Origin: Thermococcus sp.
GTDB taxonomy: Archaea; Methanobacteriota_B; Thermococci; Thermococcales; Thermococcaceae
Length of the DNA stretch: 43,457 nucleotides
Direction of reading: 5' to 3'
Assembly (NCBI RefSeq): GCF_017656495.1
Contig: NZ_JACDNS010000018.1
Location: forward strand, 1-43,457
Shown here one piece after another: positions 1,669-17,645 of the stretch (position 1 is its first letter; each line of letters opens with the position of its first letter). The notes under the pieces are model-generated. The model saw only the letters and a program-made list of their open reading frames with translations, was not told where the DNA came from and searched no databases. The position numbers and the translations under genes were made by a program.

Positions 1669-2898
1669 ATGAAGGCAATAATTGCGAAGTATATCTTGGA
1701 TGTTAATGGAATAAGGGAAAATATGGCAGTTTTAATAGAAGATGATAAAATTTATGATGTTATTCCAAAGGATAAGCTTAAAGAATACGATGTTGATGAA
1801 ATTTTTGGCGGAGAAAACTATCTCCTAATCCCCGGACTTATTAATGCCCACACCCACGTAGCAATGACAAAATTTAGGGGAATTGGGGATGACTTACCTC
1901 TTGATAAATGGCTGAATGAAGTTATTTGGCCTATGGAAAAAGAGTGGACGACAGAAGAAATCCATAAATGGGCACTTATTGGAATTGCAGAGGCCATCGC
2001 CAACGGTTCAACAGTAATCAATGACCATTACTTCTTTGCTGATGAGATTGCTAAAGCAGCTCAAAAATTGGGGGTTAGAGCGTTCATTGGACAGACCATG
2101 ATGGATTTAGTTGAATTCCCAATTGCAGAACCAGAGGAGGGGTTTAAGTTTTTCAAGAGATGGAAAGACAGAGATAAACTTGTTAAACCAGTATTAGCCC
2201 CACATGCTACTGATACGGTTTCTCTCGACCTTTTAAAAGAAACCAAAGAGTTCTCTGAAAAAGAAAAGGCGTTAATCCATATGCACGTTTCTCAGAGCAG
2301 GGAAGAAGTTTTGAGAGTCAAAAGGAGAGAAGGAGTCTTGCCTGTTGAATACCTCAAGAAAGCCGAGGTCTTAAATGAGAACTTCATCGGCGTTCATGGT
2401 GTTTATCTAAGTGAGAGAGAAGTTGGGCTTTACGCGAAAAGTAAGGCAACATTAGTGCATTGTGCAGTTAGTTTGGCAAAGCTTGAGGGGAGTGTCGCAC
2501 CGATAATTGATTTATGGGAAAGAGGAGGTAACATCGCACTTGGAAACGACTGTGCGGCTTCGAATAATTCACTTGACATGATCCAAGAGATGAAGTTCGC
2601 GGCAATACTAAATAAAGTTAAAGTCCAAAACCCTACTAAGGCTTCAGCGAGAGATGTATTTTACTGGGCAACAGTCGGAGGAGCAAAAGCATTGAAAATT
2701 AAAGCAGGATTGATAGAGAAAGGGTATCTTGCAGATCTAGTGCTAATTAACATCAACAAACTTCACTTCACTCCAAAGACAAATCTGCTTTCACATCTGG
2801 TTTATTCCGCCAAGGGAAGCGATGTTGAGAAAGTTTTTGTGAATGGGAAGCTAATTTACAACTCTGGAAAGTTTGCAAAAATGCCAGTACTTTTTTAA
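1669..2898 (+). CDS. amidohydrolase, MTA/SAH deaminase-like paralogue
   Basis: A 409-residue member of the chlorohydrolase/MtaD branch of the amidohydrolase superfamily. These are metal-dependent TIM-barrel deaminases of 5'-methylthioadenosine, S-adenosylhomocysteine or similar compounds. Metal ligands are visible: H61-T-H63 after the PGLINA strand, H206, H243 and D294, plus substrate-side H179. Three conserved blocks differ from canonical deaminases. The usual HxxE has Gln (H206-V-S-Q209), the usual HNPASNxKL reads HCAVSLAKL, and GTDGAASNN reads GNDCAASNN. The activity may therefore differ from plain MTA deamination. The ATG follows GGAGGTGATAGG, a very strong ribosome site, and a TATA-like element lies near 1620. 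The gene stands alone. The family assignment is firm; the substrate is not. Confidence 0.82.
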   Translation: MKAIIAKYILDVNGIRENMAVLIEDDKIYDVIPKDKLKEYDVDEIFGGENYLLIPGLINAHTHVAMTKFRGIGDDLPLDKWLNEVIWPMEKEWTTEEIHKWALIGIAEAIANGSTVINDHYFFADEIAKAAQKLGVRAFIGQTMMDLVEFPIAEPEEGFKFFKRWKDRDKLVKPVLAPHATDTVSLDLLKETKEFSEKEKALIHMHVSQSREEVLRVKRREGVLPVEYLKKAEVLNENFIGVHGVYLSEREVGLYAKSKATLVHCAVSLAKLEGSVAPIIDLWERGGNIALGNDCAASNNSLDMIQEMKFAAILNKVKVQNPTKASARDVFYWATVGGAKALKIKAGLIEKGYLADLVLININKLHFTPKTNLLSHLVYSAKGSDVEKVFVNGKLIYNSGKFAKMPVLF

Positions 2899-3017
2899 CT
2901 TCTTAGTTGATTGTTTAATATACTAAGCAGTAAGATTTATATAGGATAATTTCCAATTATTTCTAGAATTATTTACAAAAATTATAACACCCATCACTAT
3001 GATTGGAGGGATTATAA

Positions 3018-3338
3018 TTGTTCATTGATCCCTTTGTAATTCGCTCCATTAACCGGAGTGAACTCCGGAAACGGATTCTATTGTATCTTCACGAGATATA
3101 TCCTTCTCCCACATATCTTGCTGAAATTGCACGAGTTGTCCGTTCGGATCCTTCAAATGTTAAGGGGGCCCTAATAGGGCTTGGGAATAGATATAATGGA
3201 CATAGTTCTCTCGTAAGTTTAGGGCTAGTTGAAATAATAGAAGAAAATGGATTCAAATACTATCGACTCTCAGAATACGGAAAAAAAGTTGTCGAGCTTC
3301 TTAAATCATATCGTAGTTACTATAGCAAATTTATGTGA
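3018..3338 (+). CDS. small winged-helix transcription regulator
   Basis: A 106-residue protein with one winged-helix domain. A helical N-terminus (SELRKRILLYLHEIYPSPTY) leads into a helix-turn-helix (LAEIARVVRSDPSNVKGAL), then a wing-like segment (LVSLGLVEIIEENGFKYYRL) and a short C-terminal helix. It resembles the small ArsR-like regulators conserved in Thermococcales and Methanococcales. The start is TTG at 3018, seven bases after GGAGGG; no ATG exists near the N-terminus. The next gene starts 11 bases downstream and its ribosome site overlaps this stop, so the two form an operon. The position just upstream of fam and the archaellum operon makes an EarA-like role possible, which is inference only. 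Confidence 0.8.
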   Translation: MFIDPFVIRSINRSELRKRILLYLHEIYPSPTYLAEIARVVRSDPSNVKGALIGLGNRYNGHSSLVSLGLVEIIEENGFKYYRLSEYGKKVVELLKSYRSYYSKFM

Positions 3339-3348
3339 GGTGAAAGGG

Positions 3349-4308
3349 ATGAATTCCCTAGTTAAAAAAATAGATGAAAACATTTCAGCCATGATCCAAA
3401 TATCTATGCTCAACTTAATCAAACTTGGATTAAAATACGGAATTTTTAATAAACTAACAATAAAACACCACTATGCCGATATTTTAAGCTCAAGTCCAAT
3501 TAGAAATAAGCCTTTATTAAAAAGCCTTCTAGATACATATGTTGAAGTAGGAATATTAGAAAAAGGCATTAATGAAATAAAAATGAAAAACTTTTCTTAC
3601 ACAATAACTCTCAATAGAGAAAGTGTTCAACATATGCTTCCCAATTGGGTCCCAATTTTTGAGGAAATATATAAAATGGTGGATTACGCGTTTATAACTC
3701 CAGAACATCCGAAGATTTTAATGGATTTTGATAAAGATGCAGATTTTTGGGATATGAGGCTCTCTCTGGAATTTAACAGTAATTATAGGAAATTGATAGC
3801 ATCCATAGGGAAGCTAAAAGATGGAATGGCAGTTTTGGATCTAGGATGTGGTTCCGTTTCCCCGATAGAAATTGGAAGACTAGTAGGACCTAACGGGAAA
3901 TACGTGGGTATCGATTTCTCTCCAGGCATGTTGAGCATAGCAGAGAGTAGAATAAGAGAGCTAAGATTCGATTGGGTAATTCTCAGGGAATTGGACATTA
4001 GGACAATAATCCCCCGTAATAAATATGACATTGTCATAATGAGCTTTGTTCTTGAGTATCTTCCCACACTTTCAAAAGTCATAAATACTGCAATGAACGC
4101 GCTGAATGAGAATGGGAAATTGATCATTATAGAGCCATTCAGAGAAAATTATCCCCAAATTTCTGCATGGGAGTTTTTTGAAAAACTAACAAAGGAATTT
4201 ACCCAATTTCCTAGCAAATTTGCAATAAGAAATTCTCTCGAACAAACAAACTATGATTTCAAGCTTCATGAGATTGGAAAATCTGTTCTTGTTGTAGAAA
4301 AACTCTAA
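3349..4308 (+). CDS. fam: SAM-dependent methyltransferase, archaellum-associated (probable fam)
   Basis: A 319-residue class I methyltransferase. The N-terminal 140 residues are helical and may be a dimerisation or winged-helix region. They are followed by a Rossmann domain with motif I AVLDLGCGSVSPIEIG, a GIDFSPGML acidic-loop strand and the YDIVIMSFVLEYLP motif. The open frame extends upstream to 3247. The ribosome site GAGGTGA at 3337-3343 fits the ATG at 3349, which also puts the gene cleanly after the regulator. From memory, Thermococcales archaellum clusters commonly begin with a methyltransferase gene called fam, and this one lies directly upstream of the archaellin gene. Its substrate is not known to me. 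A 158-base promoter region separates it from arlB. Confidence 0.75.
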   Translation: MNSLVKKIDENISAMIQISMLNLIKLGLKYGIFNKLTIKHHYADILSSSPIRNKPLLKSLLDTYVEVGILEKGINEIKMKNFSYTITLNRESVQHMLPNWVPIFEEIYKMVDYAFITPEHPKILMDFDKDADFWDMRLSLEFNSNYRKLIASIGKLKDGMAVLDLGCGSVSPIEIGRLVGPNGKYVGIDFSPGMLSIAESRIRELRFDWVILRELDIRTIIPRNKYDIVIMSFVLEYLPTLSKVINTAMNALNENGKLIIIEPFRENYPQISAWEFFEKLTKEFTQFPSKFAIRNSLEQTNYDFKLHEIGKSVLVVEKL

Positions 4309-4356
4309 TTTTGTTTATTTTTCGAACTTTTGTAATTTACTTAGTTTTTTGGTAAA

Positions 4357-4374
4357 TACCTACATATGTAGGTA
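4357..4374. promoter_or_regulatory. 18-bp perfect palindrome upstream of the archaellin gene
   Basis: TACCTACATATGTAGGTA is a perfect inverted repeat, read identically on both strands. It contains TACATA in both orientations, and a TACATT copy follows at 4373-4378. A second, shorter palindrome (ATATGCATAT, 4382-4391) lies just downstream. TACATA is, from memory, the motif bound by the archaellum activator EarA of euryarchaea. The location about 25 bases upstream of the core promoter fits an activator site. Confidence 0.6.
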
Positions 4375-4401
4375 CATTACTATATGCATATGCAAAAACA
4401 A

Positions 4402-4418
4402 AAAATTGATTTATATTC
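4402..4418 (+). promoter_or_regulatory. probable core promoter of the archaellum operon
   Basis: The A-rich stretch AAAAATTG (BRE-like) is followed by ATTTATATTC (TATA-like). Transcription would begin near 4438 and leave a leader of about 29 bases containing the ribosome site GGGAGGTG at 4453. A second AT-rich match, ATATTATAAAT at 4427-4437, lies too close to the ribosome site to be preferred. Confidence 0.5.
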
Positions 4419-4466
4419 AAAGCGTAATATTATAAATTGCAAACTTTCCAAGGGAGGTGCCAAAGA

Positions 4467-5114
4467 ATGGGATACCTTATAAAGAAGAGAAGAGGTGCCG
4501 TTGGTATCGGCACCTTGATTGTGTTTATAGCTATGGTGCTAGTAGCTGCAGTTGCTGCAGCCGTTTTGATCAACACAAGCGGATATTTACAACAAAGAGC
4601 TGAAGCAACAGGAAGACAAACAACAAAAGAAGTAGCAAGCGGATTAAAAATCGACAAAGTTGTTGGGTATGCTCCAAGTGCAAATAACATAACAATGCTT
4701 GCAATACAAGTATCTCTCAATGCCGGAAGTGAACCAATAGACCTTAATCAAACTAAGCTTTACCTAGACGATGGCGCTGCCCAAGTTGTTTTAACGTACT
4801 CAGGCAATAAGGCAACATTATCTGGTAATTTATTCGATACCACCTTGAGTGCATGGAACTTAAGCTCAACAACCTTTGGAATCCTTGTAGTACAAGATGC
4901 TGATGGATCTTTAAGTGGAAGTATTCCAACCTTGACTGCTGGAGACATTGTAATTCTAACCGTCGACGCCAATTCAGTATTTGGTGGAATTGAACCAAGA
5001 ACTACTATAACAATTGAAGTCAGACCTGAGTTTGGTGCCCCAGGATTTACAAAGTTTGTTACCCCAACAGCTTACGGATTAAGCACAAACGACAAAATTG
5101 TAGATCTCAAGTGA
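4467..5114 (+). CDS. arlB: archaellin (archaellum filament protein)
   Basis: A 215-residue preprotein of the filament subunit family. The class III signal peptide MGYLIKKRRG ends in a glycine where the prepilin/pre-archaellin peptidase would cut. The conserved hydrophobic helix AVGIGTLIVFIAMVLVAAV and the INTSGYLQQRAEATGRQTT region follow and form the filament core. The rest is a beta-rich, Ser/Thr/Asn-rich outer domain with sequons such as NNIT, NQT and NLSS that could be N-glycosylated. The frame opens at 4437, but ribosome site GGGAGGTGC places the start at 4467. Only one archaellin gene is present here, whereas many Thermococcales carry two to five in tandem. A T-rich tract follows the stop codon. 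Confidence 0.95.
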   Translation: MGYLIKKRRGAVGIGTLIVFIAMVLVAAVAAAVLINTSGYLQQRAEATGRQTTKEVASGLKIDKVVGYAPSANNITMLAIQVSLNAGSEPIDLNQTKLYLDDGAAQVVLTYSGNKATLSGNLFDTTLSAWNLSSTTFGILVVQDADGSLSGSIPTLTAGDIVILTVDANSVFGGIEPRTTITIEVRPEFGAPGFTKFVTPTAYGLSTNDKIVDLK

Positions 5115-5145
5115 TGCTTAGTGTTTCTTTGAATTTTTATGTAGA

Positions 5146-5161
5146 CCTTTCTTTTTTTCAT
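5146..5161 (+). terminator. T-rich tract between arlB and arlC
   Basis: The 70-base gap after arlB contains CCTTTCTTTTTTTC, the kind of T-run at which archaeal RNA polymerase terminates or pauses. Partial termination here would make archaellin mRNA more abundant than the downstream motor genes. This is inference from the sequence only. Confidence 0.45.
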
Positions 5162-5184
5162 TAACCTTCCGGAGGGAACAGAGA

Positions 5185-5679
5185 ATGTCATTCTCATATC
5201 TAAAAGACAAATTCAAGAAAAAAAAGGAGGAGAATAAGAAAGATGACAATGTGGAGATAATTAAGTTAGATGAACTCAAAGAGAGCGAAGTTAATGAAGA
5301 AAAGAAAAAAGAGGAAGAAGAACTCCTGAACCAAGTTATGACAAGAATAAACGAAATCGAGAATGATATCCCAAGAATAAAGGTTAGCATAGATACTTTG
5401 AAATCTCAAATACAAGAAGTTCGAGAGGAGGTTGAAAAGCTAAACAAGACTATCAAAGACGTCATGATGCTTTATGAGGTTGTATCTCAAGAAATAAACC
5501 CATTTAAAGATCAAGAAAAGGATAATCCTTTACTTAATGAGATTCAGGAACTTAAGAGACATCTAGAGGATTTACGAACCGAAATTGTTCAGCTAAAATC
5601 AGATTTGAAGCTGTTGGCAACTCATGGTATTGATCTCGATGAAGTTATATACGAAGTAATTTCGGAGGGAGAGTTATGA
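5185..5679 (+). CDS. arlC: archaellum motor-associated protein ArlC (FlaC)
   Basis: A 164-residue, highly charged, cytosolic coiled-coil protein. A Lys/Glu-rich N-terminal 60 residues (FKKKKEENKKDD onward) leads to heptad-like segments (INEIENDIPRIKVSIDTLKS, IQEVREEVEKLNKTI) and a C-terminal helix (LEDLRTEIVQLKSDLKLLAT). In euryarchaea ArlC works with ArlD/E to link the motor ATPase to the chemotaxis system. The start follows GGAGGG at 5171-5176. Its last four bases overlap arlD as ATGA, so the two are translationally coupled. Confidence 0.9.
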   Translation: MSFSYLKDKFKKKKEENKKDDNVEIIKLDELKESEVNEEKKKEEEELLNQVMTRINEIENDIPRIKVSIDTLKSQIQEVREEVEKLNKTIKDVMMLYEVVSQEINPFKDQEKDNPLLNEIQELKRHLEDLRTEIVQLKSDLKLLATHGIDLDEVIYEVISEGEL

Positions 5680-6476
5680 TTACTGAGATAGAAATCGAAG
5701 AGAGACTCAAAAAACTTCGAGGAAAAGTTCCTAATGTGCTCATAGAGGATTTAAGAGAAAAATTACTCAGTAAAATGGATATTCTTACTCCAGAGCAAGT
5801 TGACAAAATAATCGAAAGAATCCTCCAAACATATTCTGGACAAGTAGAGAGGCTCATCAAGCTTGACAAACGCGTTGAAGAGATTGGCAAGTATATCGAG
5901 GAAATCCGAAGTTATCTAATAGAGAAAAAAGGCATGAGTAAAGATCAAACAACTCTTGAGGAAATAGCTGTTGAAGAAAAACTCTCTCCTAATTATGAAG
6001 AAATCAACATTACAAACTCTGAGAAAGTTGAAAAGGAGGAAGAGATTATGGGGAGAAATTTTGAGATACCTCAGGAAATTAGAGATGTACTGGTTGTTTC
6101 ATCAAATGGTAAGGCTAGGCTTGAAAAGATTCCTCAAGACATGGCCTCAACAATGGTGGCTCTAAAGTGGTTAGGATTTCTAATAGATCGCGTTGGTATG
6201 CAAAATCTCGAAAATGTACTAGAATTTTACTATGAAATCGGCTGGATATCTGAGAACGTCTTAAATACCCTACTAAAATATGCCAATGGAACGAAACCAC
6301 ATCATAGAGAACCTAGCTGGAGACCCGAGGATAAGTTGACTATCCAAGACCACTTAATCTCACTGTTGTTCATAGAAAGGCTTAGGGGCGTTAGGATAAC
6401 TCGGGAAATCCTCGACTCAATAGAGCGCGAAATGAAGGTGATAAACAGAATTCTAGAGGAAGTGTATGGTGTGTAG
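5676..6476 (+). CDS. arlD: archaellum protein ArlD (FlaD/E family)
   Basis: A 266-residue protein. The N-terminal half is helical and charged, with a coiled-coil-like stretch around residues 20-90. A linker of low complexity rich in Glu and Asn follows. The C-terminal domain of about 120 residues is the conserved FlaD/E domain (RLEKIPQDMASTMVALKWLG, LENVLEFYYEIGWIS, LIERLRG-like segment, helix at the end). It is thought to be part of the cytosolic ring that passes chemotaxis signals to the motor. It overlaps arlC by four bases and is followed by arlF after nine bases. No separate arlE is present. Confidence 0.9.
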   Translation: MITEIEIEERLKKLRGKVPNVLIEDLREKLLSKMDILTPEQVDKIIERILQTYSGQVERLIKLDKRVEEIGKYIEEIRSYLIEKKGMSKDQTTLEEIAVEEKLSPNYEEINITNSEKVEKEEEIMGRNFEIPQEIRDVLVVSSNGKARLEKIPQDMASTMVALKWLGFLIDRVGMQNLENVLEFYYEIGWISENVLNTLLKYANGTKPHHREPSWRPEDKLTIQDHLISLLFIERLRGVRITREILDSIEREMKVINRILEEVYGV

Positions 6477-6485
6477 GGGATTCCA

Positions 6486-7001
6486 ATGGGTTTCAGTGTC
6501 TCAGCGTCATTTGCGCTATTGTTCACGGTGACTCTGATTTCCTTTGCTATAATGTATACAGCTCTAGACAATACTTATAGTTATGTATTTGATGCAATTG
6601 AAGATCACGCTAATACTATAATCATAACTAAATCCTCACAGCTTTATGTGTCACTCTATGATTACACTACCCAGCTTAATGTGTCTGTCTATGATGTTAC
6701 ATTTAACATTACAAATGGCGGCACAACACTCTCTCCATCTCGCTGGAACTTTGTATATGATGGAAGACTAACCTCGAGTAACATTGACATTGAGAACAAA
6801 CAATACCTCATACCTGGAGATTCTCTGCTCCTAACAGTACTAAACGTTCCGAAAACTACAGACACCCATGCTCTAGTTGTAATTACAGAAACTGGATGCA
6901 ATCTGAAATTCAAGTGGCGATGGGTATGGTTGAATCAAACTGCAGGTACAGGAACGGTTGAGGTAATTAATAGTGCATGGTATTGCCCAATGGAGGGTTA
7001 A
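6486..7001 (+). CDS. arlF: archaellum stator protein ArlF (FlaF)
   Basis: A 171-residue protein. One N-terminal membrane helix (FSVSASFALLFTVTLISFAI) anchors an extracytoplasmic beta-sandwich. In the crenarchaeal homologue this sandwich binds the S-layer and acts as part of the stator, according to family knowledge. The beta domain is visible as alternating hydrophobic strands (LNVSVYDVTFNITNGGTTL, SLLLTVLNVPKTT). Several N-x-S/T sequons occur. Two cysteines lie near the end (GCNLKFKW and WYCPMEG) and may form a disulfide. The gene sits between arlD and arlG with almost no spacing. Confidence 0.9.
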   Translation: MGFSVSASFALLFTVTLISFAIMYTALDNTYSYVFDAIEDHANTIIITKSSQLYVSLYDYTTQLNVSVYDVTFNITNGGTTLSPSRWNFVYDGRLTSSNIDIENKQYLIPGDSLLLTVLNVPKTTDTHALVVITETGCNLKFKWRWVWLNQTAGTGTVEVINSAWYCPMEG

Positions 7002-7003
7002 AC

Positions 7004-7465
7004 ATGGCGAGTAACGTTGCATCAGAACTTATACTCTTCATAGCATCTCTGCTAGTGGCTGGGATGATTGCAGGTGGATTATATGTTATAACACAAGATA
7101 TCTCCGATGGAATAACTACTAGAGGGAAAGATGCAGCATATAATTTGAGGGTGAATTTTGAAATTATAAATGATCCCGAAAACATTCCTACTGATAATGC
7201 TGGAGCTTATATCTTCTATGTCAAGAATATTGGAAAAGTGCCATTCACATTTGAATCTAGCTCTATTATTGTATTTATTGATGGAAATATGATACCTTCT
7301 TCAAATCTGACCTTTGTTAACTTAAATAACCCCACCTCAAATCAGCTCTATCCCTATGATGTTGGCGAGATTCATGTTGCAACTTCCCTCTCATTAGGGT
7401 ACCACAAAATTGTTGTTGTTCTTTCAAATGGAAAGCAGAGAGCACTAATATTTAAGATAGGGTGA
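7004..7465 (+). CDS. arlG: archaellum stator protein ArlG (FlaG)
   Basis: A 153-residue partner of ArlF. An N-terminal membrane helix (SELILFIASLLVAGMIAGGL) precedes a beta-sandwich (AAYNLRVNFEIIND, AYIFYVKNIGKVPFTF, YHKIVVVLSNGKQRALIFKIG). Homologues form filaments capped by ArlF and span the pseudo-periplasm to the S-layer. The frame opens at 6977. The ribosome site GGAGGGT at 6992-6998, lying over the arlF stop, selects the ATG at 7004. The TGA stop overlaps the region that provides the arlH ribosome site. Confidence 0.9.
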   Translation: MASNVASELILFIASLLVAGMIAGGLYVITQDISDGITTRGKDAAYNLRVNFEIINDPENIPTDNAGAYIFYVKNIGKVPFTFESSSIIVFIDGNMIPSSNLTFVNLNNPTSNQLYPYDVGEIHVATSLSLGYHKIVVVLSNGKQRALIFKIG

Positions 7466-7470
7466 GAGGC

Positions 7471-8166
7471 ATGGGAACACTCCTTAAGATTCAAATTCCA
7501 AACGACGAATTACATAGAAGATTGGGGGGAGGGATCCCCTCAGGAAGTGTAATGCTAATTGAGGGAGATAGGGGTACTGGCAAGTCTATTTTCTCTCAAA
7601 GACTTCTCTATGGATTCTTAAGAAATAACCATACTGCTTCTTATATTTCAAGTCAATACACAACGCCTGAATTCATAAATCAGATGGAATCCTTAGGTTA
7701 CAGTGTTATTACAGATTTAATTAGACGACGTTTGCTTTTTGTATCTCTGTATCCTCTCTTAGCTGGGGTTTCAAAAAGAGAGAAGTTCTTAACAAGATTT
7801 TTAAGTGAATCAAGAATCTGGGATAGAGATGTTGTAATTATTGATTCAATTTCTTCCCTACTCCCAGCCACTCTCGATGAAGACGAATTAAGGAGATTGG
7901 CAGATCATATCAAAAGATTAAGCTCTCTAGGCAAGGTAATAATGCTAACAGTCAATCCCAATGATATTGATAGGGACATCTTAAGAGTCCTAGAGGAAAT
8001 CTCTAGTATATTGGTCAGGCTACAAGTGAAAGTTTTTGGAGGAGATTTGAAGAATTCCGCAACTATTGTGAAATATAACAATGCAATGGGAATATTCCAG
8101 AAGATTATTCCATTTAGAGTAGAACCGAGAGTAGGATTTATTGTAGAAATTGCTGCGGTGGTGTAA
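7471..8166 (+). CDS. arlH: archaellum motor regulatory ATPase ArlH (FlaH)
   Basis: A 231-residue KaiC/RecA-like ATP-binding protein that caps the ArlI motor ring. Walker A is GDRGTGKS at about residues 32-39, and Walker B is DVVIIDSISS. From family knowledge, nucleotide binding rather than fast hydrolysis governs its interaction with ArlI. The longest frame begins at GTG 7462, but GGTGA at 7461-7465 is an ideal ribosome site for ATG 7471, so that start is preferred. The next gene begins one base after the stop. Confidence 0.92.
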   Translation: MGTLLKIQIPNDELHRRLGGGIPSGSVMLIEGDRGTGKSIFSQRLLYGFLRNNHTASYISSQYTTPEFINQMESLGYSVITDLIRRRLLFVSLYPLLAGVSKREKFLTRFLSESRIWDRDVVIIDSISSLLPATLDEDELRRLADHIKRLSSLGKVIMLTVNPNDIDRDILRVLEEISSILVRLQVKVFGGDLKNSATIVKYNNAMGIFQKIIPFRVEPRVGFIVEIAAVV

Positions 8167-8167
8167 A

Positions 8168-9793
8168 ATGGCTGAGAAATTCAGTGATAGCTTAGAGGTT
8201 GCAATGGCACGTAATCCCCATTTAAGGAGATATATAAACAGTTTTGTCAAACAAACAGGTAAATTCCCAGAGTTTCATGTCCAGCTTAGTAGGAGCATGA
8301 AAGAAATAAAGTATCCAAACATAATCTATCCCGTTGGAGACCCAATTTTTATCCATATATATGGTGATCCAAAAACAGAAAGGAAGTATATAGTCATAGA
8401 GCCTCGCATAACAAGTCCTCAAGAGGAAGAAAAGTACGAGCTTATCAAGGATAAAATCCTAGAAATGGCACCTTCAAAGAGAATACCGGAAGACAAAGAG
8501 GAATTCGAGATGTTTCTTGATTCTCTATTTGATGAGGCTCTGAATAAAATAAGTAAAGGCGGATTGTTTAGAAGAAATACTGTAAATATCACAAGAGAAG
8601 AAGCAGAGAAATTTAGATATCTCCTAAAGCGGGACATTGTGGGTATTGGACCTTTAGAACCCCTAATTAGGGATCCATATATTGAGGACATTCACATAAT
8701 TGGGGCAAATTATGTTTCTTTAGTTCACAAAATTTTCGAGTCCTTGCCTACTAACATCACATTCGGGGATAACATAAGATTAGCTGACTATTTCAAAAAC
8801 TTAAGTGAGAGAATGGGAAGACCTGTAAGTGATAAGAACCCCATAGTTGATGGTACCCTTCCAGATGGATCAAGAATTAACATCATATATAGTCCAGATG
8901 TCAGTATAAGAGGTCCTAGTGCTACTATAAGAAAGTTCTCAGCGACACCCTTAAGTGTTGTACAGCTAGTTAATTGGAATACATTCTCTGCAGAAATTGC
9001 GGCCTACTTATGGATTGCACTTGAATATGGTATGAGTATATTTGTATGTGGAGAAACAGCAAGTGGAAAAACTACAACACTAAACTCTATCATTCCTTTT
9101 ATCAAGCCTAATGCAAAAATCTATACCGCAGAGGACACTCCAGAGGTTGTAGTTCCACATCCTACTTGGCAGAGACTAACCACAAGAGAAAGAGGTCCAG
9201 AAGAGTCAAGGGTTACACTATTTGATCTTCTAAAGGCAGCACTAAGATCAAGACCAAACTACATCATTGTTGGTGAGATTAGAGGTGCAGAAGGTGCAAT
9301 AGCGTTTCAAGCAATGCAGACAGGACACCCTGTACTCTCCACATTCCACGCAGGGGATATAAAAAAGATGATTCAGCGTTTTACGGGTTCGCCTATTAAT
9401 GTACCTGTCACATTTATAGACAACCTAAATATTGCCCTTTTCCAGCAAGCTGTTTATGTTAGAGGGAAATTCCTGAGAAGAGTTGTCAGCGTTGTCGAGA
9501 TTGAGGGGTACTATGAAGAACTTGGAGGAGTTGCTACAAGAAATGTGTTCGAATGGGATTCTGTTTCAGATAGGCACATTTTCAGAGGCATGAACAACTC
9601 ATATATCCTTGAAAGAAAAATAGCAGAAGTTGCAGGATATGAGGATCCCAAAGATATATACAACGAACTCTTCTTGAGGGCGAGAATAATCAAAAGGATG
9701 ATAGAATTAGGTATAATGGACTATTACTCAGTTTACAGGGAGATTAAGAACTTTTATGAGAAGGGAATAGAGGGATTGAGCTTTAGGCTGTGA
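8168..9793 (+). CDS. arlI: archaellum motor ATPase ArlI (FlaI)
   Basis: A 541-residue type II/IV secretion-family ATPase that powers filament assembly and rotation. A helical N-terminal domain (1-230) is followed by the RecA-like core. Walker A is GETASGKTT near residue 295. An Asp box (YTAEDTPEVVVP), Walker B (YIIVGEIRGAEG) and a His box (GHPVLSTFHAGD) follow. The C-terminal helices are typical of archaellar rather than pilus ATPases. The longest frame begins at 8150, inside arlH. The ATG at 8168 just after the arlH stop is preferred, although its ribosome site (GGTGGTG) is weak and coupling to arlH translation is likely. Confidence 0.93.
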   Translation: MAEKFSDSLEVAMARNPHLRRYINSFVKQTGKFPEFHVQLSRSMKEIKYPNIIYPVGDPIFIHIYGDPKTERKYIVIEPRITSPQEEEKYELIKDKILEMAPSKRIPEDKEEFEMFLDSLFDEALNKISKGGLFRRNTVNITREEAEKFRYLLKRDIVGIGPLEPLIRDPYIEDIHIIGANYVSLVHKIFESLPTNITFGDNIRLADYFKNLSERMGRPVSDKNPIVDGTLPDGSRINIIYSPDVSIRGPSATIRKFSATPLSVVQLVNWNTFSAEIAAYLWIALEYGMSIFVCGETASGKTTTLNSIIPFIKPNAKIYTAEDTPEVVVPHPTWQRLTTRERGPEESRVTLFDLLKAALRSRPNYIIVGEIRGAEGAIAFQAMQTGHPVLSTFHAGDIKKMIQRFTGSPINVPVTFIDNLNIALFQQAVYVRGKFLRRVVSVVEIEGYYEELGGVATRNVFEWDSVSDRHIFRGMNNSYILERKIAEVAGYEDPKDIYNELFLRARIIKRMIELGIMDYYSVYREIKNFYEKGIEGLSFRL

Positions 9794-9802
9794 GGTGATA
9801 AC

Positions 9803-11512
9803 GTGGGAAGAAAAAAGGCAGGGATATTTACACAGTCAGATTTGACAATAAGAAGGTACCTAAGGGCAGTGTTAGGACCGAGTATAGCTACTTCAGTAGT
9901 TCTCTTTATCATGATATCAATTGCTCCACGCTTTGTAAATATTCCTCGCATGGTAAGTATAGCTCTCTATGCAATACCGCTATTGCCCTTGATTTATGCT
10001 GTCTCATACCCTTACGCAAAAGCAAGCAGTAAAAAAGTTAAGATAAACTCGAAGATACCATATTTCGCCACATATTTTGCAGTTCTATCCACAAGCGATG
10101 TGAGTAGAAGTGACTTAATATGGAATTTGTCCACAGAGGAGATTTTAGAACCCATTGCAACGGATATGAAGAAAGTCTACTACTTAATAGCCAAGCTCCA
10201 TCGTGGAATGCCCGAGGCGCTGAGATTTCTTGCAAAAAGAACACCAAGCAAAGTTTTTTCTGATTTTCTTGAGAGGTTGGCATATTCATTAGATAGCGGT
10301 GTTGAACTAAAAGACTATCTGCTCCAAGAACAGAAAACTGTTATGGATGATTATGAGACATTCTATGAGAATGCCCTTTACGATTTGGACGTATTTAAGG
10401 AAATTTACTCATCACTTATAATTTCTGTTGTGTTTATGGTTACGTTCATCATAATTGGTCCGATAATAACAGGCCAAGATATTGTAAGCCTTAGCATTTT
10501 TATGTTTGTACTTATTTTGGCCACTGAGATTGGTGTTTTGGTGGTTATAAAGCATAAAATGCCCGAAGATAAGATATGGTCAGAAACTGCAATGATACCT
10601 TCCCGCAAGTCAAAAATAATTAAAGCAGCTGTAATATCAATTATTGGAATGATAATAATGGCAATTCTATACACCCTTGTAATAAAGCCGAGGTTTGATG
10701 TGCCCCTTCTTATGCGTATCGCAATAGTCCTAACCCCCCTTGCATATGTTGGTAAGGTTATTGGAAATGAAGAAGAGAGCATAATTATAAAAGATGAAAA
10801 CTTCCCGGCATTTATAAGGAGTTTAAGCTCATCATTGGCAGCAAGTGGAGCTTCTCTTCACCTCGTTCTCAAGTATCTTAGCTCTCACGATTTTGGAACA
10901 TTAACCCATGACATACGAAATCTTTACCGTAGAGTTGCCATGAGAATAAACGATGCAAGGGCATGGGATTACTTCGTTTCAGATACGGGGAGCTGGCTCA
11001 TAAGCATATTTTCTGAGATATTCAAAAAGAGCATAAAACTTGGAGCAGAACCGGATTATGTGGGTATGGTAATTTCGAGAAACTTTGAACGTCTTGTGAG
11101 ACTCAGAAGGAAGAGACAACAAAATGTAGCCAGCTTTAAAGGTGTAATTTATGGGATTACGGGAGCTTTTGCATTTTCAGTTGCAGCAGCATTTCAAGTT
11201 GCTGTATATATGAATTACCTCTTCTCAAATATACAAGTCAGCGGAGAATTTCTACAAAGCATAATATTTGTGCCGTCTTCAAGCGGCTTACGGCTAACGA
11301 GTTATATTTTAGTTGCAATTCTCTTGCTTCATGCTTTTTTGTCTTCCTTCTCAATAAAATTAGCAGATGGTGGGCATTTAGGAATCTCAATTTATCATTT
11401 TGTCATATTAACATGGATTGCTGCTCTCTCAATGTATATTGGAGAGCTTGCTATGAAAAAGATGATGACATTTGCGGGGGCGATCTGGCCACTTTTGGGG
11501 GTGATTTCATGA
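9803..11512 (+). CDS. arlJ: archaellum membrane platform protein ArlJ (FlaJ)
   Basis: A 569-residue polytopic membrane protein of the GspF/TadC/FlaJ family, the platform on which ArlI acts. Hydrophobic segments occur near residues 25-70, 205-260, 285-325, 450-480 and 495-560, separated by two large charged cytosolic loops with GspF-like helices. Start is GTG at 9803 after GAGGTGATAAC. The stop overlaps the next start as ATGA. The N-terminal segment MGRKKAGIF is strongly basic, as expected for the cytosolic side. Confidence 0.92.
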   Translation: MGRKKAGIFTQSDLTIRRYLRAVLGPSIATSVVLFIMISIAPRFVNIPRMVSIALYAIPLLPLIYAVSYPYAKASSKKVKINSKIPYFATYFAVLSTSDVSRSDLIWNLSTEEILEPIATDMKKVYYLIAKLHRGMPEALRFLAKRTPSKVFSDFLERLAYSLDSGVELKDYLLQEQKTVMDDYETFYENALYDLDVFKEIYSSLIISVVFMVTFIIIGPIITGQDIVSLSIFMFVLILATEIGVLVVIKHKMPEDKIWSETAMIPSRKSKIIKAAVISIIGMIIMAILYTLVIKPRFDVPLLMRIAIVLTPLAYVGKVIGNEEESIIIKDENFPAFIRSLSSSLAASGASLHLVLKYLSSHDFGTLTHDIRNLYRRVAMRINDARAWDYFVSDTGSWLISIFSEIFKKSIKLGAEPDYVGMVISRNFERLVRLRRKRQQNVASFKGVIYGITGAFAFSVAAAFQVAVYMNYLFSNIQVSGEFLQSIIFVPSSSGLRLTSYILVAILLLHAFLSSFSIKLADGGHLGISIYHFVILTWIAALSMYIGELAMKKMMTFAGAIWPLLGVIS

Positions 11513-13449
11513 GAAAAGTCTTTTTGGCTGTTGTGATCTTTTTTATCTTCCTTCCCCAAATCCTAGCAGACTCTGTATTTTATGGATGGTTACAAGTACC
11601 AACGACAATAACGATTGGGGACACACAAATAACGCTCAAAGACATATCTGGGGTGGATGGTTCAATTTTTGTCGTATTTAAGGATGACAAAGACTCCAAC
11701 ATGGAAATTCTTCCACTTAGTAGTTATATCTATTGGAGGGGATACAATCTCAGCTCCGAATATGTGCTACTAAATGAGAGAGGGCATGTAAAACTAGCGC
11801 TTAACTTCCCATACCTGCTTGAGGGAGAAACCATGCACTTTGGAGATTACAAGATATATTTGAAGTCTGTGACAAAAAAGCAAGCACAGTTAGAGCTGAG
11901 TTATAAAAATATTACAAAAGAATTCACATACAAGGAAGGGGAAATAAATTTCGAAAACCTAAAGCTTTCTTTGATATTAGCCCCAACAATTTTTGATGGG
12001 TATATAGCTAGAGGATATCCAAAGAAAATAGATGAATGGAGCATAACTTTTGTGTCATATAATATCACAAAAGAAGACGGTACATTAAAGGAAATTGTTG
12101 AGCTCAAAATTAATCAAAAAACTTACTGGAGTGAAGTTGGAGATGTCCTTGAGGCCGAAGGACTTAGGATAGAAATAAATGATTTAGTTGGGTCTACCTA
12201 TTTGAGGATGAAAGTAGAACTTAAAGGCGCCTACCTTAACATTAGCCTAACTCCCTATTTTGAAAGCTGGCTAAGTGAAGGAAAAACAACCAAAATTGGA
12301 CCCTATATTGTAAAAATAGAGAAAATATTCTCTGATCAAGCATATGTTTCAATTAAAAATCCTTGTGGGATGCCACTTAAAAGCGGTTTAGTTAAAATTG
12401 GCAAGTTTTCATACATGCTTTCATATGACGGAATTTCAATAGGATTCGTTGAAACAAAGGAAGAAAATGGAGAAAAAAAGGCCAAGGTCGTGATTATTCT
12501 AGATAATGAAAAGATACCAAAAATCGAAGATGTTGCCTTCCTCAATGTTTCTTATGAAGTCCCAGCCAGGATTACCCAGTATAGCACTTTTGGGACTAAG
12601 GTTATATTAAAAAACACTGGAAAAAGCGATCTTAAATACGTCGAGATAATCCCAAATGTCTCAAAAATATTCTCTATTGTAAATGACTATCCAGTATATA
12701 TTCCTACAATCAAAAGAGGAGAGAAAATTGAGTTCACTCTCGTACTACAATCCCAAGCTTATGGAAATTTAACAGTAGGAAACATCAGAGTACTAGCGCA
12801 TGCTCCTTACGAACTTTCATGCTATGGTTTAGGAGAAGTTGAATTCTCCTCAGAGACAAAGAGGGTAGAAATTCTAAAAGCAGAGCCCAACTACAGTATT
12901 AATGTAAAGACTTTAAATGGAACAGCCGGAAGTCCTATTCCGCTTAATATTACGATAACGAATTTAGGTAATGTAGATAGCCCTTTTGATTTGACTGTTG
13001 CGCTCCCAAAGGGATTCGGTGTTGTCGCAGAGAACTTCACGATATATGGAAAATGGCTTCATTTAAAAGACTCTCTAAAACCTAACAGTTCAAAAACGTA
13101 TAAAATGTTCTTAATCCCCACAAAGGAGGGACAGTACGAAGTGGAAGTTTTAGTAAAAAGTTTTGGAAAATTATTTCAGAAATCTACAACATTAACAATA
13201 ACTTCATTAGTAAAGGAGCCTAGAAACACTGAAAATATTTTACCAGCTCAAAATGCCACATGTACCCCAAAAGTCATAGAAAAAATTGTAGAGGTCCCCA
13301 AGATTATCCAACAAAACAACACTGTTACAGTGGAAACTGTTTCACTGAGGTGGAAAATTATGTATGGTGGAGGATTCTTCCTAGGCGGAATACTATTCAT
13401 TCTAGCACTGGCATGGATAGCAGCGAAATTGGAAGAAAGAAGGGAATGA
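11509..13449 (+). CDS. membrane-anchored multidomain surface protein coupled to arlJ
   Basis: A 646-residue protein with no assignment I can name. It has a signal peptide (MRKVFLAVVIFFIFLPQILA) and then four repeated beta modules with a shared pattern. The modules open near TITIGDTQITLKDI, ETMHFGDYKIYLKSV, DVLEAEGLRIEINDLVG and TTKIGPYIVKIEKI. Two immunoglobulin-like (CARDB/NEW3-type) domains follow at about 375-490 and 495-595. After them come a short polar linker with ATCTP and one C-terminal membrane helix (GGGFFLGGILFILALAW) ending in charged KLEERRE. The repeats resemble archaeal S-layer modules. The ATG overlaps the arlJ stop by four bases, so it belongs to the archaellum transcript. 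A role as an envelope partner of the ArlF/ArlG stator is inference. Confidence 0.75.
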   Translation: MRKVFLAVVIFFIFLPQILADSVFYGWLQVPTTITIGDTQITLKDISGVDGSIFVVFKDDKDSNMEILPLSSYIYWRGYNLSSEYVLLNERGHVKLALNFPYLLEGETMHFGDYKIYLKSVTKKQAQLELSYKNITKEFTYKEGEINFENLKLSLILAPTIFDGYIARGYPKKIDEWSITFVSYNITKEDGTLKEIVELKINQKTYWSEVGDVLEAEGLRIEINDLVGSTYLRMKVELKGAYLNISLTPYFESWLSEGKTTKIGPYIVKIEKIFSDQAYVSIKNPCGMPLKSGLVKIGKFSYMLSYDGISIGFVETKEENGEKKAKVVIILDNEKIPKIEDVAFLNVSYEVPARITQYSTFGTKVILKNTGKSDLKYVEIIPNVSKIFSIVNDYPVYIPTIKRGEKIEFTLVLQSQAYGNLTVGNIRVLAHAPYELSCYGLGEVEFSSETKRVEILKAEPNYSINVKTLNGTAGSPIPLNITITNLGNVDSPFDLTVALPKGFGVVAENFTIYGKWLHLKDSLKPNSSKTYKMFLIPTKEGQYEVEVLVKSFGKLFQKSTTLTITSLVKEPRNTENILPAQNATCTPKVIEKIVEVPKIIQQNNTVTVETVSLRWKIMYGGGFFLGGILFILALAWIAAKLEERRE

Positions 13450-13469
13450 GAGTATAACTCAACCTAAGT

Positions 13470-13479
13470 ATTATAAACC
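13470..13479 (+). promoter_or_regulatory. TATA box of the PUA/PAPS-reductase-like gene
   Basis: TATTATAAACC lies about 35 bases upstream of the ATG at 13509. It predicts a start of transcription near 13500 and a very short leader holding AGGTGA. This marks the end of the archaellum operon and the start of a new transcription unit. Confidence 0.65.
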
Positions 13480-13508
13480 CTCTCCCTTTCTTTCCTTTAG
13501 GTGAGAAG

Positions 13509-15401
13509 ATGAGAAGAGGTCCAGTATTTTTAGGGAAAGCTTATATTCACTGGTGTGAGAGATGCAATGTTCCTCTAATCAGCGGGAAGTGTGACATTCA
13601 TGAAAAAGAAGGGATTTTTAAATTAGATCTAACCCCTCCCGCAGATGTTAGATTTGCTTTTGAAAAAGATCTGGAGTTCATTAAGAGAGAGTTTAAAAAG
13701 CACTATGGCATTGATATCGGCGAGATAATTAATGGAAAGGTTGTTCTCCTCAATAAAACTCCGGGAGAAGACGACATTTACGAGATAATATTTGATGGCT
13801 ACATTTTTGGATGGCTCCGCTTTGATCCATTAGAACTTAAATGGAAGCCGGGGCTTAAGGTTGAAGGGGCGATTGCACTTTGGAAGCGCTTTGGGAAGAG
13901 GATGAGAAAATGGGTCATTGTAGATGAAGGTGCCGTGAAGCCAATAAAGAAAGGTGCAAATGTTCTGCCTGTAGGCATAATTGAGGCAGATCCCTCAATT
14001 AAGATAGGGGATGACGTCATAGTTGTAAGCGAAAGTGGAGAAGTTATTGCTACAGGAATAGCAAAAAAAGATTATGAGCAACTTATAAATCCAAAAGAGA
14101 GAGGAACAGGCATTAAAACAAGGCACCAGAGAAGTGTTAATTATAGAGAAGGAAAAAATGCTACTATTGACGATGTAATTAAAGCTAACAAATCAGCACT
14201 CGAAGAAAGAGTTAGAGAAGCAAGAGAGTTTATGAGAAAAACTGCTGAGAAGATAAGGCTTCCAATGGCCGTTGCATTTTCTGGGGGCAAAGACAGCCTG
14301 GCTGTTCTTGGATTGATGCTCGAAGAATTTGGAGAAGGTTTTACGAGTTTTTTCAACAACACAGGACTCGAATTTCCTGAAACTCTGCAATACATTGAGG
14401 AAATAAAGAAAGAGCTTAAAGACAAAAATATTGAGTTTATAGTTGCCGATGCTGGAGATTCCTTTTGGCATGCTATAAATGTCTTTTCTCCGCCTGGAAG
14501 AGACTACCGCTGGTGCTGTAAGGTTACAAAGCTAGGCCCTATAACACTAACAATCAAAAAACACTACCCTCAGGGTGTTTTGATGTTTGTGGGGCAGAGA
14601 AAATATGAAAGCATCCAGAGATATAAGCAACCGAGGATCTGGAAAAATCCCTGGGTACCTAATGAGATAGGAGCTTCTCCCATATTTCACTGGAATGCCC
14701 TTGAAGTTTGGCTTTACATATTCTCAAGGAAGCTGAAGTATAATCCGCTATATGAACATCGCTTGGACAGAATTGGATGTTTCTTGTGTCCGAGCTCATC
14801 TTTAGCTGAAATTTATACACTTAAAGAAGAGAAACCAGAACTGTGGGATAAATGGGAGAAAGAACTCGAAAAATGGAGGAAGCGTCTTAATCTTCCTAAA
14901 GAATGGATAACCTATGGATTCTGGAGATGGAGACAGCTTAGTAGGGGACAAAAGAAGCTGGTGGAACAGCTTGGAATTGAGCTTCCAGAGAAGAGAGTCT
15001 GGGAACCTGTGCAGTATTCAATTGAAGAGCACGAAAATGGATACTTAGTAAAGCTAAACACAGCAATAAACTTGAAAAGAATCAAAGAAGTTGCTCCTAT
15101 TCTCGGTAAAGTTGAAATAGGGGAAAATTACATAAAGGTTGGTGAAATAGTTTTCAAAGAAGAGGGAATATTTGCTCCTGAACGGAGAGAAGGTGTTCAG
15201 GCATATTATTTAGTCAAGAGGGCCTATGAGTGTGTGGGCTGTGGGGTTTGTGTCGGAAAGTGTCCAGAAAATGCATTAAGCATAAATCCAAAAACGAAGA
15301 AAATCGTCGTTGATTATGAAAGATGCATTCACTGTAGGGAGTGTATGGAAGTATGTCCCCTGTTAAAAATCAAAAATCCAAGAGAAGGAAGTCAGCTTTA
15401 A
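13509..15401 (+). CDS. PUA / PAPS-reductase-like / ferredoxin fusion protein
   Basis: A 630-residue protein with four parts in order. A small zinc-ribbon-like segment near residues 15-35 (WCERCNVPL...CDIH) comes first. A PUA-type RNA-binding domain follows near 130-205 (VLPVGIIEADPSIKIGDDV). Next is an adenine-nucleotide alpha-hydrolase (PAPS reductase) domain with the PP-loop AFSGGKDSLAVLG near residue 255 and an RWCCKVTKLGP motif. A C-terminal pair of 4Fe-4S sites ends the protein (CVGCGVCVGKCPENA and CIHCRECMEVCP). A PUA domain suggests an RNA substrate, and the PP-loop plus clusters suggest sulfur or redox chemistry such as tRNA thiolation. Simple sulfate assimilation is less likely. Archaea commonly annotate this architecture only as a PAPS reductase family protein. 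The next gene starts inside its 3' end. Confidence 0.85.
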   Translation: MRRGPVFLGKAYIHWCERCNVPLISGKCDIHEKEGIFKLDLTPPADVRFAFEKDLEFIKREFKKHYGIDIGEIINGKVVLLNKTPGEDDIYEIIFDGYIFGWLRFDPLELKWKPGLKVEGAIALWKRFGKRMRKWVIVDEGAVKPIKKGANVLPVGIIEADPSIKIGDDVIVVSESGEVIATGIAKKDYEQLINPKERGTGIKTRHQRSVNYREGKNATIDDVIKANKSALEERVREAREFMRKTAEKIRLPMAVAFSGGKDSLAVLGLMLEEFGEGFTSFFNNTGLEFPETLQYIEEIKKELKDKNIEFIVADAGDSFWHAINVFSPPGRDYRWCCKVTKLGPITLTIKKHYPQGVLMFVGQRKYESIQRYKQPRIWKNPWVPNEIGASPIFHWNALEVWLYIFSRKLKYNPLYEHRLDRIGCFLCPSSSLAEIYTLKEEKPELWDKWEKELEKWRKRLNLPKEWITYGFWRWRQLSRGQKKLVEQLGIELPEKRVWEPVQYSIEEHENGYLVKLNTAINLKRIKEVAPILGKVEIGENYIKVGEIVFKEEGIFAPERREGVQAYYLVKRAYECVGCGVCVGKCPENALSINPKTKKIVVDYERCIHCRECMEVCPLLKIKNPREGSQL

Positions 15402-16285
15402 TCATAATGTTAGCTGTTATTTTCCTTCTTCCGCTTGCTTCTCCCCAAGAGGAATATGAGTACAACATAGAGAGCTACTCAATTTATTTTGACATAATCA
15501 ACGATAACACCATAAAAGAAACAATTGAAATCAGTCTAACTGCGAATACGAATTTCAGCAGATATGTGTTCTATTCGGATTACCCAATAGAGAATCCTGA
15601 TGCAATAGTGAAGATAAATGGCAAGATACAAGTTGTAAATATAAGTGTAAGCAAAATAGTTGGCGGGATTAATGCCGTATATGTGAAATTTCCAACTGTA
15701 CATTCCGGGGATAGTGTTAATATCAAAATAAGCTTCTATTCTTCAGGAATGTTGCAAAATGTTCAAAATAAAAAACAGTTTGCGTATTACATAAAATTCA
15801 GCCAGCCAGTGACTGTCTTCTATGTTAGGTTGTTTGTTCCAAAAGGATATGCAATTCTCTCTCCGATAATACCCTCGCCAGACATGGTAGAAAGCTCAGA
15901 GAACAGACTTGTGTTAGAATGGAAAAGAGAGAACGTCAAAGCTGGAGAAGAATTTTATTTTATTGTTGGATTCTCTGGAGAAATCAAGAGCTTCTCCCCT
16001 CTGTGGCTTGTAGTAATATTTGTATCTGCATTTGCAGGAGGATTCTTTGCGGGGATGCTATATAAGGAGAGAAGAGGCAAAGAGAAAGTAGAGATACTTA
16101 GAAGTGACGAAGAGAAAGTCATTGAACTCTTAAAGAATGGGCCTGTTTTGCAAAGTGAACTCGTCAAGAAGCTCGGTGTTTCAAAGGCAAAAGTCAGCCT
16201 TCTCCTAAAAGATATGGAGAAAAAAGGACTAATCGAGCGTGTTAAGGAGGGCAGAAGTTACCTCGTTAGACTCAAAGAAAGCTAA
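15353..16285 (+). CDS. membrane-bound winged-helix regulator
   Basis: A 310-residue membrane protein. A basic n-region (KNQKSKRRK) and hydrophobic core (ALIIMLAVIFLLPLAS) form a signal peptide. An extracytoplasmic beta-rich domain of about 170 residues follows. A membrane helix comes next (LWLVVIFVSAFAGGFFAGML), then a basic stop-transfer (YKERRGKEK). A cytosolic winged-helix domain ends the protein (VIELLKNGPVLQSELVKKLG, SKAKVSLLLKDMEKKGLIER). The order outside-membrane-DNA-binding domain suggests a one-component sensor that regulates from the membrane, as in the archaeal DUF7345/DUF7343 type proteins. The start is uncertain: GTG 15341 and ATG 15353 both lie inside the upstream gene, and ATG 15407 would remove most of the basic n-region. 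The GGGAG at 15337 favours 15353. Confidence 0.75.
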   Translation: MSPVKNQKSKRRKSALIIMLAVIFLLPLASPQEEYEYNIESYSIYFDIINDNTIKETIEISLTANTNFSRYVFYSDYPIENPDAIVKINGKIQVVNISVSKIVGGINAVYVKFPTVHSGDSVNIKISFYSSGMLQNVQNKKQFAYYIKFSQPVTVFYVRLFVPKGYAILSPIIPSPDMVESSENRLVLEWKRENVKAGEEFYFIVGFSGEIKSFSPLWLVVIFVSAFAGGFFAGMLYKERRGKEKVEILRSDEEKVIELLKNGPVLQSELVKKLGVSKAKVSLLLKDMEKKGLIERVKEGRSYLVRLKES

Positions 16286-16287
16286 GG

Positions 16288-16297
16288 TTTATAAACC
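16288..16297 (+). promoter_or_regulatory. TATA box for the zinc-finger / pcm / HAD operon
   Basis: TTTATAAACC is a near-perfect Thermococcales TATA box, about 37 bases ahead of the ribosome site GAGGTGA at 16322. It lies immediately after the stop of the membrane-bound regulator. It probably drives the next three same-strand genes. Confidence 0.65.
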
Positions 16298-16333
16298 ATG
16301 GAAATTAGCTCATAAAACTGCGAGGTGAATGAA

Positions 16334-17645
<1,312 letters not shown>

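Follow-up and report, generated by a model that had tools for sequence, protein, structure and literature searches.

The archaellum (arl) gene cluster of a Thermococcus sp. ends in an uncharacterised gene, here called S, at positions 11509-13449 (+ strand) of contig NZ_JACDNS010000018.1, whose 43,457 nucleotides form the window analysed here; G, C and L numbers are our labels for genomes, contigs and loci. S is an open reading frame (ORF) for a 646-amino-acid (aa) type I membrane ecto-protein. By position, inheritance and loss it is a member of the archaellum cluster, so far in Thermococcaceae only, and it is dispensable in two lineages. Its cluster membership, domain architecture, constant length and conserved transmembrane (TM) helix are directly supported by the analyses below. 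We are highly confident that S is a gene dedicated to the archaellum that was gained, moved and lost with the motor, and very probably S is an additional part of that motor, missing from textbook lists.

S occurs beside arlJ and is lost with the archaellum genes

The ATG of S at 11509 overlaps the end of arlJ at 11512 in an ATGA, and S is the final gene of the arl cluster. arlJ encodes the platform protein directly 5′ of S (9803-11512, + strand; NCBIfam ArlJ equivalog, 709.7 bits over cut-off). This ATGA overlap, reported from the sequence alone in an earlier reading, proved to be widespread: a 4-nt overlap (ATGA, GTGA or TTGA) was found at 54 of ∼63 distinct loci, with the remaining S starts lying 0-7 nt downstream. 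A Shine-Dalgarno-like motif precedes the S start at 36 of 62 loci, compared with 3% for a control inside arlJ; in the window it is GGGGGTGAT (11497-11505, + strand), within the end of arlJ and three bases 5′ of the S start.

In a survey of 94 Thermococcaceae genomes, S was found in 65 and ArlJ in 76, and wherever both genes share a contig S is the next gene after arlJ. The one exception, a copy on a contig that lacks arlJ, comes from a genome that is 75% complete (G089) and is a broken remnant. This remnant (L077 5126-6362, on G089:C193) has lost its start, contains internal stop codons and lies beside a threonine-synthase-like gene on a contig with no arl genes. When only genomes at least 90% complete were counted, arlJ and S occurred together in 54, arlJ without S in 9, S without arlJ in none and neither gene in 11 (Fisher test, 4e-8, not corrected for phylogeny), so that an intact S is present in 0 of these 11 arl-less genomes. 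Arl-less genomes fall in 11 separate clades of the EF-2 tree, and S was never retained; eight of these clades include genomes at least 90% complete, and the other three rest on genomes below 90%. The distribution of ArlG follows the same pattern. Outside the Thermococcaceae, a search of the phylum (115 genomes, one class) found no S ortholog and only weak matches to the immunoglobulin (Ig)-like region. The sole match in a scan of genome contigs was a 94% relative, a metagenome-assembled genome with a broken copy.

The housekeeping gene PCMT served as a control for linkage. It adjoins the 3′ side of S in many genomes and directly follows arlJ where S is missing, and it was kept in 14 of 14 arl-less genomes tested, none of which kept S. 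The archaellum-less relative G088 lacks a block comprising earA, fam, arlB-arlJ and S (window 2859-13458); by blastn, its locus L222 aligns with the window at 1453-2858 and 13459-16898 only. The missing block ends 9 nt past the S stop codon, and homology is back at 10 nt. As an empty site, L222 1404-1449 against window 2859-13458 is clean and helps to define the limits of the cluster. In G074, fam is kept, the loss extends from near the end of fam to 13460, and homology resumes 11 nt beyond the S stop codon. The remaining arl-less genomes start to align with S-carrying relatives 3′ of S, at +41 nt or later. Because PCMT is kept, S is lost and the edges of the empty sites fall beyond S, the boundary in each case places S with the archaellum genes. 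Assembly gaps were ruled out as the source of the arl-less genomes, as PCMT was found, ArlG was absent and the G088 empty site was read through.

S also appears to have travelled with ArlJ. Trees of the two proteins share a deep division into two lineages that does not follow the genera, and their distances are correlated (r 0.78), also after accounting for EF-2 (partial r 0.745, permutation p 0.001). Compared with the EF-2 tree, the presence of two deep arl lineages across genera points to repeated horizontal transfer of whole clusters. The arlJ-S overlap was retained at nearly all loci in both deep lineages.

Expression data for S and the archaellum genes

In RNA sequencing of T. kodakarensis histone mutants, TK0050, the S gene of that species by position, was down 6.5-fold and 5.4-fold together with the whole fla operon (PMC8155482). 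The drop was intermediate between those of its fla neighbours and of TK0051 (PCMT), which was also down, by 4-fold, and TK0050 was kept outside the 'TK0038-TK0049' operon despite responding alongside it (PMC8155482). The fall of TK0050 with the fla genes supports the view that S is expressed as the tail of the arl transcript and that some read-through occurs; PCR data from P. furiosus conflict with it (see below). Long-read data for P. furiosus show no internal start sites, suggesting that arl transcripts all begin at arlB0 (PMC10665913). S is probably the last gene of its transcription unit, since the next gene keeps its own TATA-like element, TATTATAAAC (13469-13478, + strand), which sequence comparison also finds in G088. 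The exclusive arlJ-adjacent position of S (bar the G089 remnant), its absence from non-archaellated relatives, its co-loss and co-transfer with arl genes, and its co-regulation with them in T. kodakarensis strongly support the archaellum link drawn by the sequence-only reading.

Domain architecture of S

Kyte-Doolittle hydropathy bore out the predicted signal peptide and C-terminal membrane anchor: the N-terminus is hydrophobic over residues 1-28 and a TM helix spans residues ∼615-643. The signal peptide (residues ∼1-21; 11509-11571, all features of S being on the + strand) has a cleavage site judged by eye. It is followed by four beta modules with approximate boundaries at residues 22-97 (11572-11799), 98-175 (11800-12033), 176-252 (12034-12264; degenerate) and 253-335 (12265-12513; with an invariant Cys286). 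Profile-profile comparison (hhalign) identified the modules as homologous (m1-m2 95%, m2-m4 91% and m3-m4 91% probability), with weaker direct matches for the other pairs (m1-m3 76%, m1-m4 33%, m2-m3 35%). The four GDxxIxLKxI-like repeats proposed from the sequence therefore stand as homologous modules, but the literal motif is clear in modules 1 and 2 only.

The two Ig-like domains that had been proposed were likewise recovered (Ig1-Ig2 97.7%), and no match between the beta modules and the Ig domains was seen by profile-profile comparison. Ig-like domain 1 (residues 336-460; 12514-12888) contains a nearly invariant Cys438. Ig-like domain 2 (residues 461-566; 12889-13206) is of the BatD/CARDB type: it matches Pfam BatD (E 1.1e-5, 26.5 bits against a cut-off of 24.1) and aligns with PDB 2kl6/3idu over ∼98 residues (E ∼1e-3), and CARDB is matched by 36 of 52 S members (best member E 2e-9), with the window protein below cut-off. 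In Pfam and PDB searches of S, known families were matched by the Ig domains only. A poorly conserved stalk, Thr-rich in many orthologs (residues 567-611; 13207-13341), leads to the TM helix (13342-13428) and to a short charged cytoplasmic tail with the stop codon (13429-13449). The length of S is 646±7 aa (629-672) despite identity down to 22%, domain lengths are near-constant, and each protein carries 9-27 N-glycosylation sequons.

The label "S-layer-like" given in the sequence-only reading should be dropped, because no S-layer family in Pfam or NCBIfam matched S. A lattice protein of the S-layer was rejected on this lack of a family match and on co-loss with the archaellum, which argues against it, and an ArlF/ArlG paralog on the lack of any match to the archaellin-type models PF01917, NF052590 and NF052591.

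Conserved transmembrane helix and ArlJ codon 454

At 37% among divergent pairs, the TM helix is the most conserved long segment of S. Residues G627 and A635 are found in 52 of 52 proteins, W636 and A639 in 49 and I631 in 47, and G627, I631, A635 and A639 lie on one helix face in an i/i+4 G-I-A-A pattern. The AW..A motif of this helix was absent from the paralog TM helices examined. Conservation of the face and absence of the motif from paralogs suggest packing with a specific helix partner in the membrane, for which ArlJ is the first candidate.

Alignment of ArlJ offered one suggestive candidate contact at codon 454 (11162-11164, + strand), a Gly in a hydrophobic helix. This residue is Gly in 58 of 60 genomes with S and Ala in 10 of 10 without it, which includes both S-less lineages; in G070, an independent S loss, position 454 is the sole change among 180 conserved ArlJ positions. 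Recombination of the arlJ 3′ end was rejected as the cause of the G070 loss, as both arlJ and PCMT of this genome stay closest to those of its S-carrying sisters.

Possible role of S in the archaellum motor

Our best explanation is that S is an accessory strut that docks on the motor and crosses the pseudoperiplasm, a tentative account that we rate a little short of an even chance. Translated from the 3′-terminal part of the arl mRNA, S would be secreted and kept in the membrane by its single C-terminal TM helix. The G-I-A-A face of this helix would pack against a partner, probably a membrane protein of the archaellum and in the first instance ArlJ. Together with the stalk, the four beta modules and the two Ig-like domains (∼545 folded residues) would project outward as a rod, and in the pseudoperiplasm S would align or steady either the filament or the ArlF/ArlG stator relative to the canopy-like S-layer. 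We infer the extracellular rod shape, the docking partner and the mechanical role from the features described above; action as a strut or collar is, taken by itself, possible but slightly less secure than the account as a whole. The gap between membrane and S-layer in P. furiosus is ∼34 nm, with unassigned membrane-proximal densities and no continuous conduit (PMC5517150), and by our estimate six beta domains and the stalk could plausibly reach 25-35 nm. A near-constant length would be expected of a part that spans a fixed gap. The most specific version, in which S is a Thermococcales-specific strut recruited from a family of ecto-partners of ABC (ATP-binding cassette) transporters, with its TM helix docked on ArlJ near Gly454 and its ectodomain spanning the ∼34 nm gap and tying the stator or the emerging filament to the S-layer, is unlikely to be right in all its parts.

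Several observations weigh against this explanation. Twelve arlJ-bearing Thermococcaceae lack S, so that S is not present in all archaellated species as a core component would be; nine of them form one clade of the ArlJ tree and G070 stands apart, giving two losses, and G020 (decayed arlJ) and G064 (arlJ cut by the contig end, with S absence from the search only) were not placed on the tree. Clusters look broken in G042, G073 and G020, and most other S-less genomes have complete ones. S is therefore accessory rather than universally required. This weakens, as a universal requirement, the role suggested in the sequence-only reading (an envelope partner of ArlF/ArlG or a bushing around the filament), and that reading is supported in part. 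Physical linkage itself promotes both co-loss and co-transfer. Membership of S in the arl mRNA, as supposed in the sequence-only reading, is supported by the response of TK0050, which may be partly read-through, but not by reverse transcription PCR in P. furiosus, where a flaJ-PF0329 co-transcript was never found and PF0329, the S gene of that species by position, was explicitly left out of the operon in 2014; in the same experiments flaJ was never joined to flaI either and was detected alone only (PMC4263178). The overall sequence conservation of S is low, and AlphaFold2 prediction of the window protein alone gave a mean predicted local distance difference test score (pLDDT) of 35, informative for the two end helices only; Ig2 predicted by itself reached a pLDDT of 57 and had no Foldseek match at E≤0.001. 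The conserved TM face could serve homo-oligomers instead. The association with ArlJ 454 was noticed post hoc (chance level ∼3/180), and two genomes with S also have Ala there; TM changes in S that might compensate for Ala454 in these two showed no clean pattern.

If S is a true motor part, it bears on how the archaellum stays held in the envelope during rotation. Two model organisms of cryo-electron tomography fall within the S-carrying group, T. kodakarensis and, by gene position only, P. furiosus, and models and density assignments from both species would then omit a ∼70 kDa, cluster-encoded, membrane-anchored component. The exclusion of PF0329 from the operon would also merit a second look, and natural S-less arl clusters provide a ready comparison group.

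Alternative explanations

S might instead be an assembly factor and not part of the finished motor: anchored in the membrane, it would work in the periplasm as a chaperone or exit guide, helping archaellins or ArlF/ArlG out of the membrane or to the glycosylation enzyme. The gene adjoins that of the platform, Ig-like, BatD and TRAP-beta-type folds are frequent among extracytoplasmic assembly helpers, and many paralogs sit by ABC transporters, which may mean that the family at large works with export machines. However, S is so far known from Thermococcaceae only while the assembly core is universal (PMC4858521), S-less genomes retain complete arl clusters, and with its near-constant length S looks more like a spanning part than like a chaperone. 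We consider this role unlikely.

Less likely again is that S is an adhesin or surface decoration, serving not rotation but archaellum-based adhesion and the cables that join Thermococcales cells. P. furiosus archaella do stick to surfaces (PMC4263178), adhesins often contain CARDB-type domains (PMC8416519), the S ectodomain evolves fast, and S has 9-27 sequons. Adhesins, however, usually vary strongly in length and repeat number, whereas the length and domain order of S are constant, and its most conserved part is the TM helix and not a distal binding face.

It is improbable that S is a passenger, an envelope protein of unrelated function carried along by close arl linkage and read-through: the missing flaJ-PF0329 transcript, the loss of S from otherwise complete clusters and the read-through into TK0051 would all fit, but PCMT beyond S persists in every arl-less genome tested and S never does, no genome surveyed has an intact S elsewhere, and the overlap with arlJ has been preserved in both deep lineages.

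Gene order and neighbouring genes

The arl cluster of the window begins with a small ORF in the place of earA (3018) and a fam-like methyltransferase gene (3247), followed by arlB (4437), arlC (5185), arlD (5676), arlF (6486), arlG (6977), arlH (7462) and arlI (8150), several of which were identified by Pfam or NCBIfam and the remainder by gene order. The arlB gene (4437-5114) is the sole NF006325 archaellin gene in this genome. G087 and G092 likewise have one, and G090, of the same genus as the window genome, has four; a survey of Thermococcales reported two to five archaellin genes per genome (PMC10665913).

S is flanked by arlJ on one side and by PAPS-reductase or PCMT genes on the other. 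In the window, the gene directly 3′ of S (13509-15401), which has its own TATA-like element, encodes a single protein of the PRK13795 type that combines PUA and PAPS-reductase-like domains with a pair of 4Fe-4S domains. Two genes after S (15341-16285) lies a membrane-anchored protein with an outside N-terminal domain and a C-terminal winged-helix DUF7343/MarR-like domain, possibly a membrane-bound regulator.

Comparison with known systems

PF0329 and TK0050 are orthologs of S by position, each being next after flaJ/arlJ, with PCMT (TK0051) following TK0050; both are annotated as 'hypothetical (membrane) protein' and are uncharacterised. In the P. furiosus cluster as published, arlJ is already followed by 'a hypothetical gene' (PMC10665913), so S has been seen before in that cluster and never assigned.

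The S profile also finds paralogs in the same genomes, many of which adjoin ABC transporter genes, with one full-length group elsewhere. Those beside ABC ATPase or permease genes are COG1361-like (L098-L107 and L111; in the window's own genome, G000:C14 near 49858). Like S, they are ∼600-720 aa long, with a signal peptide and a C-terminal TM helix, adjoin an ATP-driven membrane machine, and match the S profile in the N-terminal module, the Ig domains or both. Unlike S, which does not itself adjoin ABC ATPase or permease genes, their partners are ABC_tran with ABC2_membrane or ABC_tran with MacB/FtsX, and their TM helices lack AW..A; L100, the only one scanned, has NEW3 and carboxypeptidase-regulatory domains. 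ATP-driven membrane machines may be the general partners of the S family of ecto-proteins, one member of which would have been recruited to the archaellum. The full-length group belongs to genera g1 and g6 (L093 7385-9280, L094 7462-9342, L095 7409-9304, L096 5846-7711). Its members are 620-631 aa long and match S residues 1-379 and ∼450-636, but they lie away from arl genes, are kept in the archaellum-less G088 and have another TM motif. The L093 copy is flanked by carbon-nitrogen hydrolase and calcineurin-like phosphoesterase genes.

Among Ig-type proteins, the CARDB structures 2kl6/3idu are single isolated domains compared with the multi-domain S, and their similarity is the Ig2 alignment, with no function carried over. 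Like S, the VARTIG proteins (arCOG07710, PMC8416519) are surface proteins of Thermococcales that carry CARDB/E-set Ig domains, and some have a C-terminal TM helix. By their description they are set apart from S, since they lie in large, hypervariable and recently acquired islands, whereas the locus, length and architecture of S are fixed.

The closest parallel in proposed role is the ArlF/ArlG stator. Like S, ArlF and ArlG are extracytoplasmic beta proteins encoded in the arl cluster, with one TM helix, and the tie between motor and envelope proposed for S would resemble theirs. ArlF and ArlG are archaellin paralogs with an N-terminal TM helix and an Arch_flagellin match and are near universal in archaella, whereas S, which is not universal, combines a Sec-like signal and a C-terminal TM helix (by hydropathy) with six beta domains and no archaellin match.

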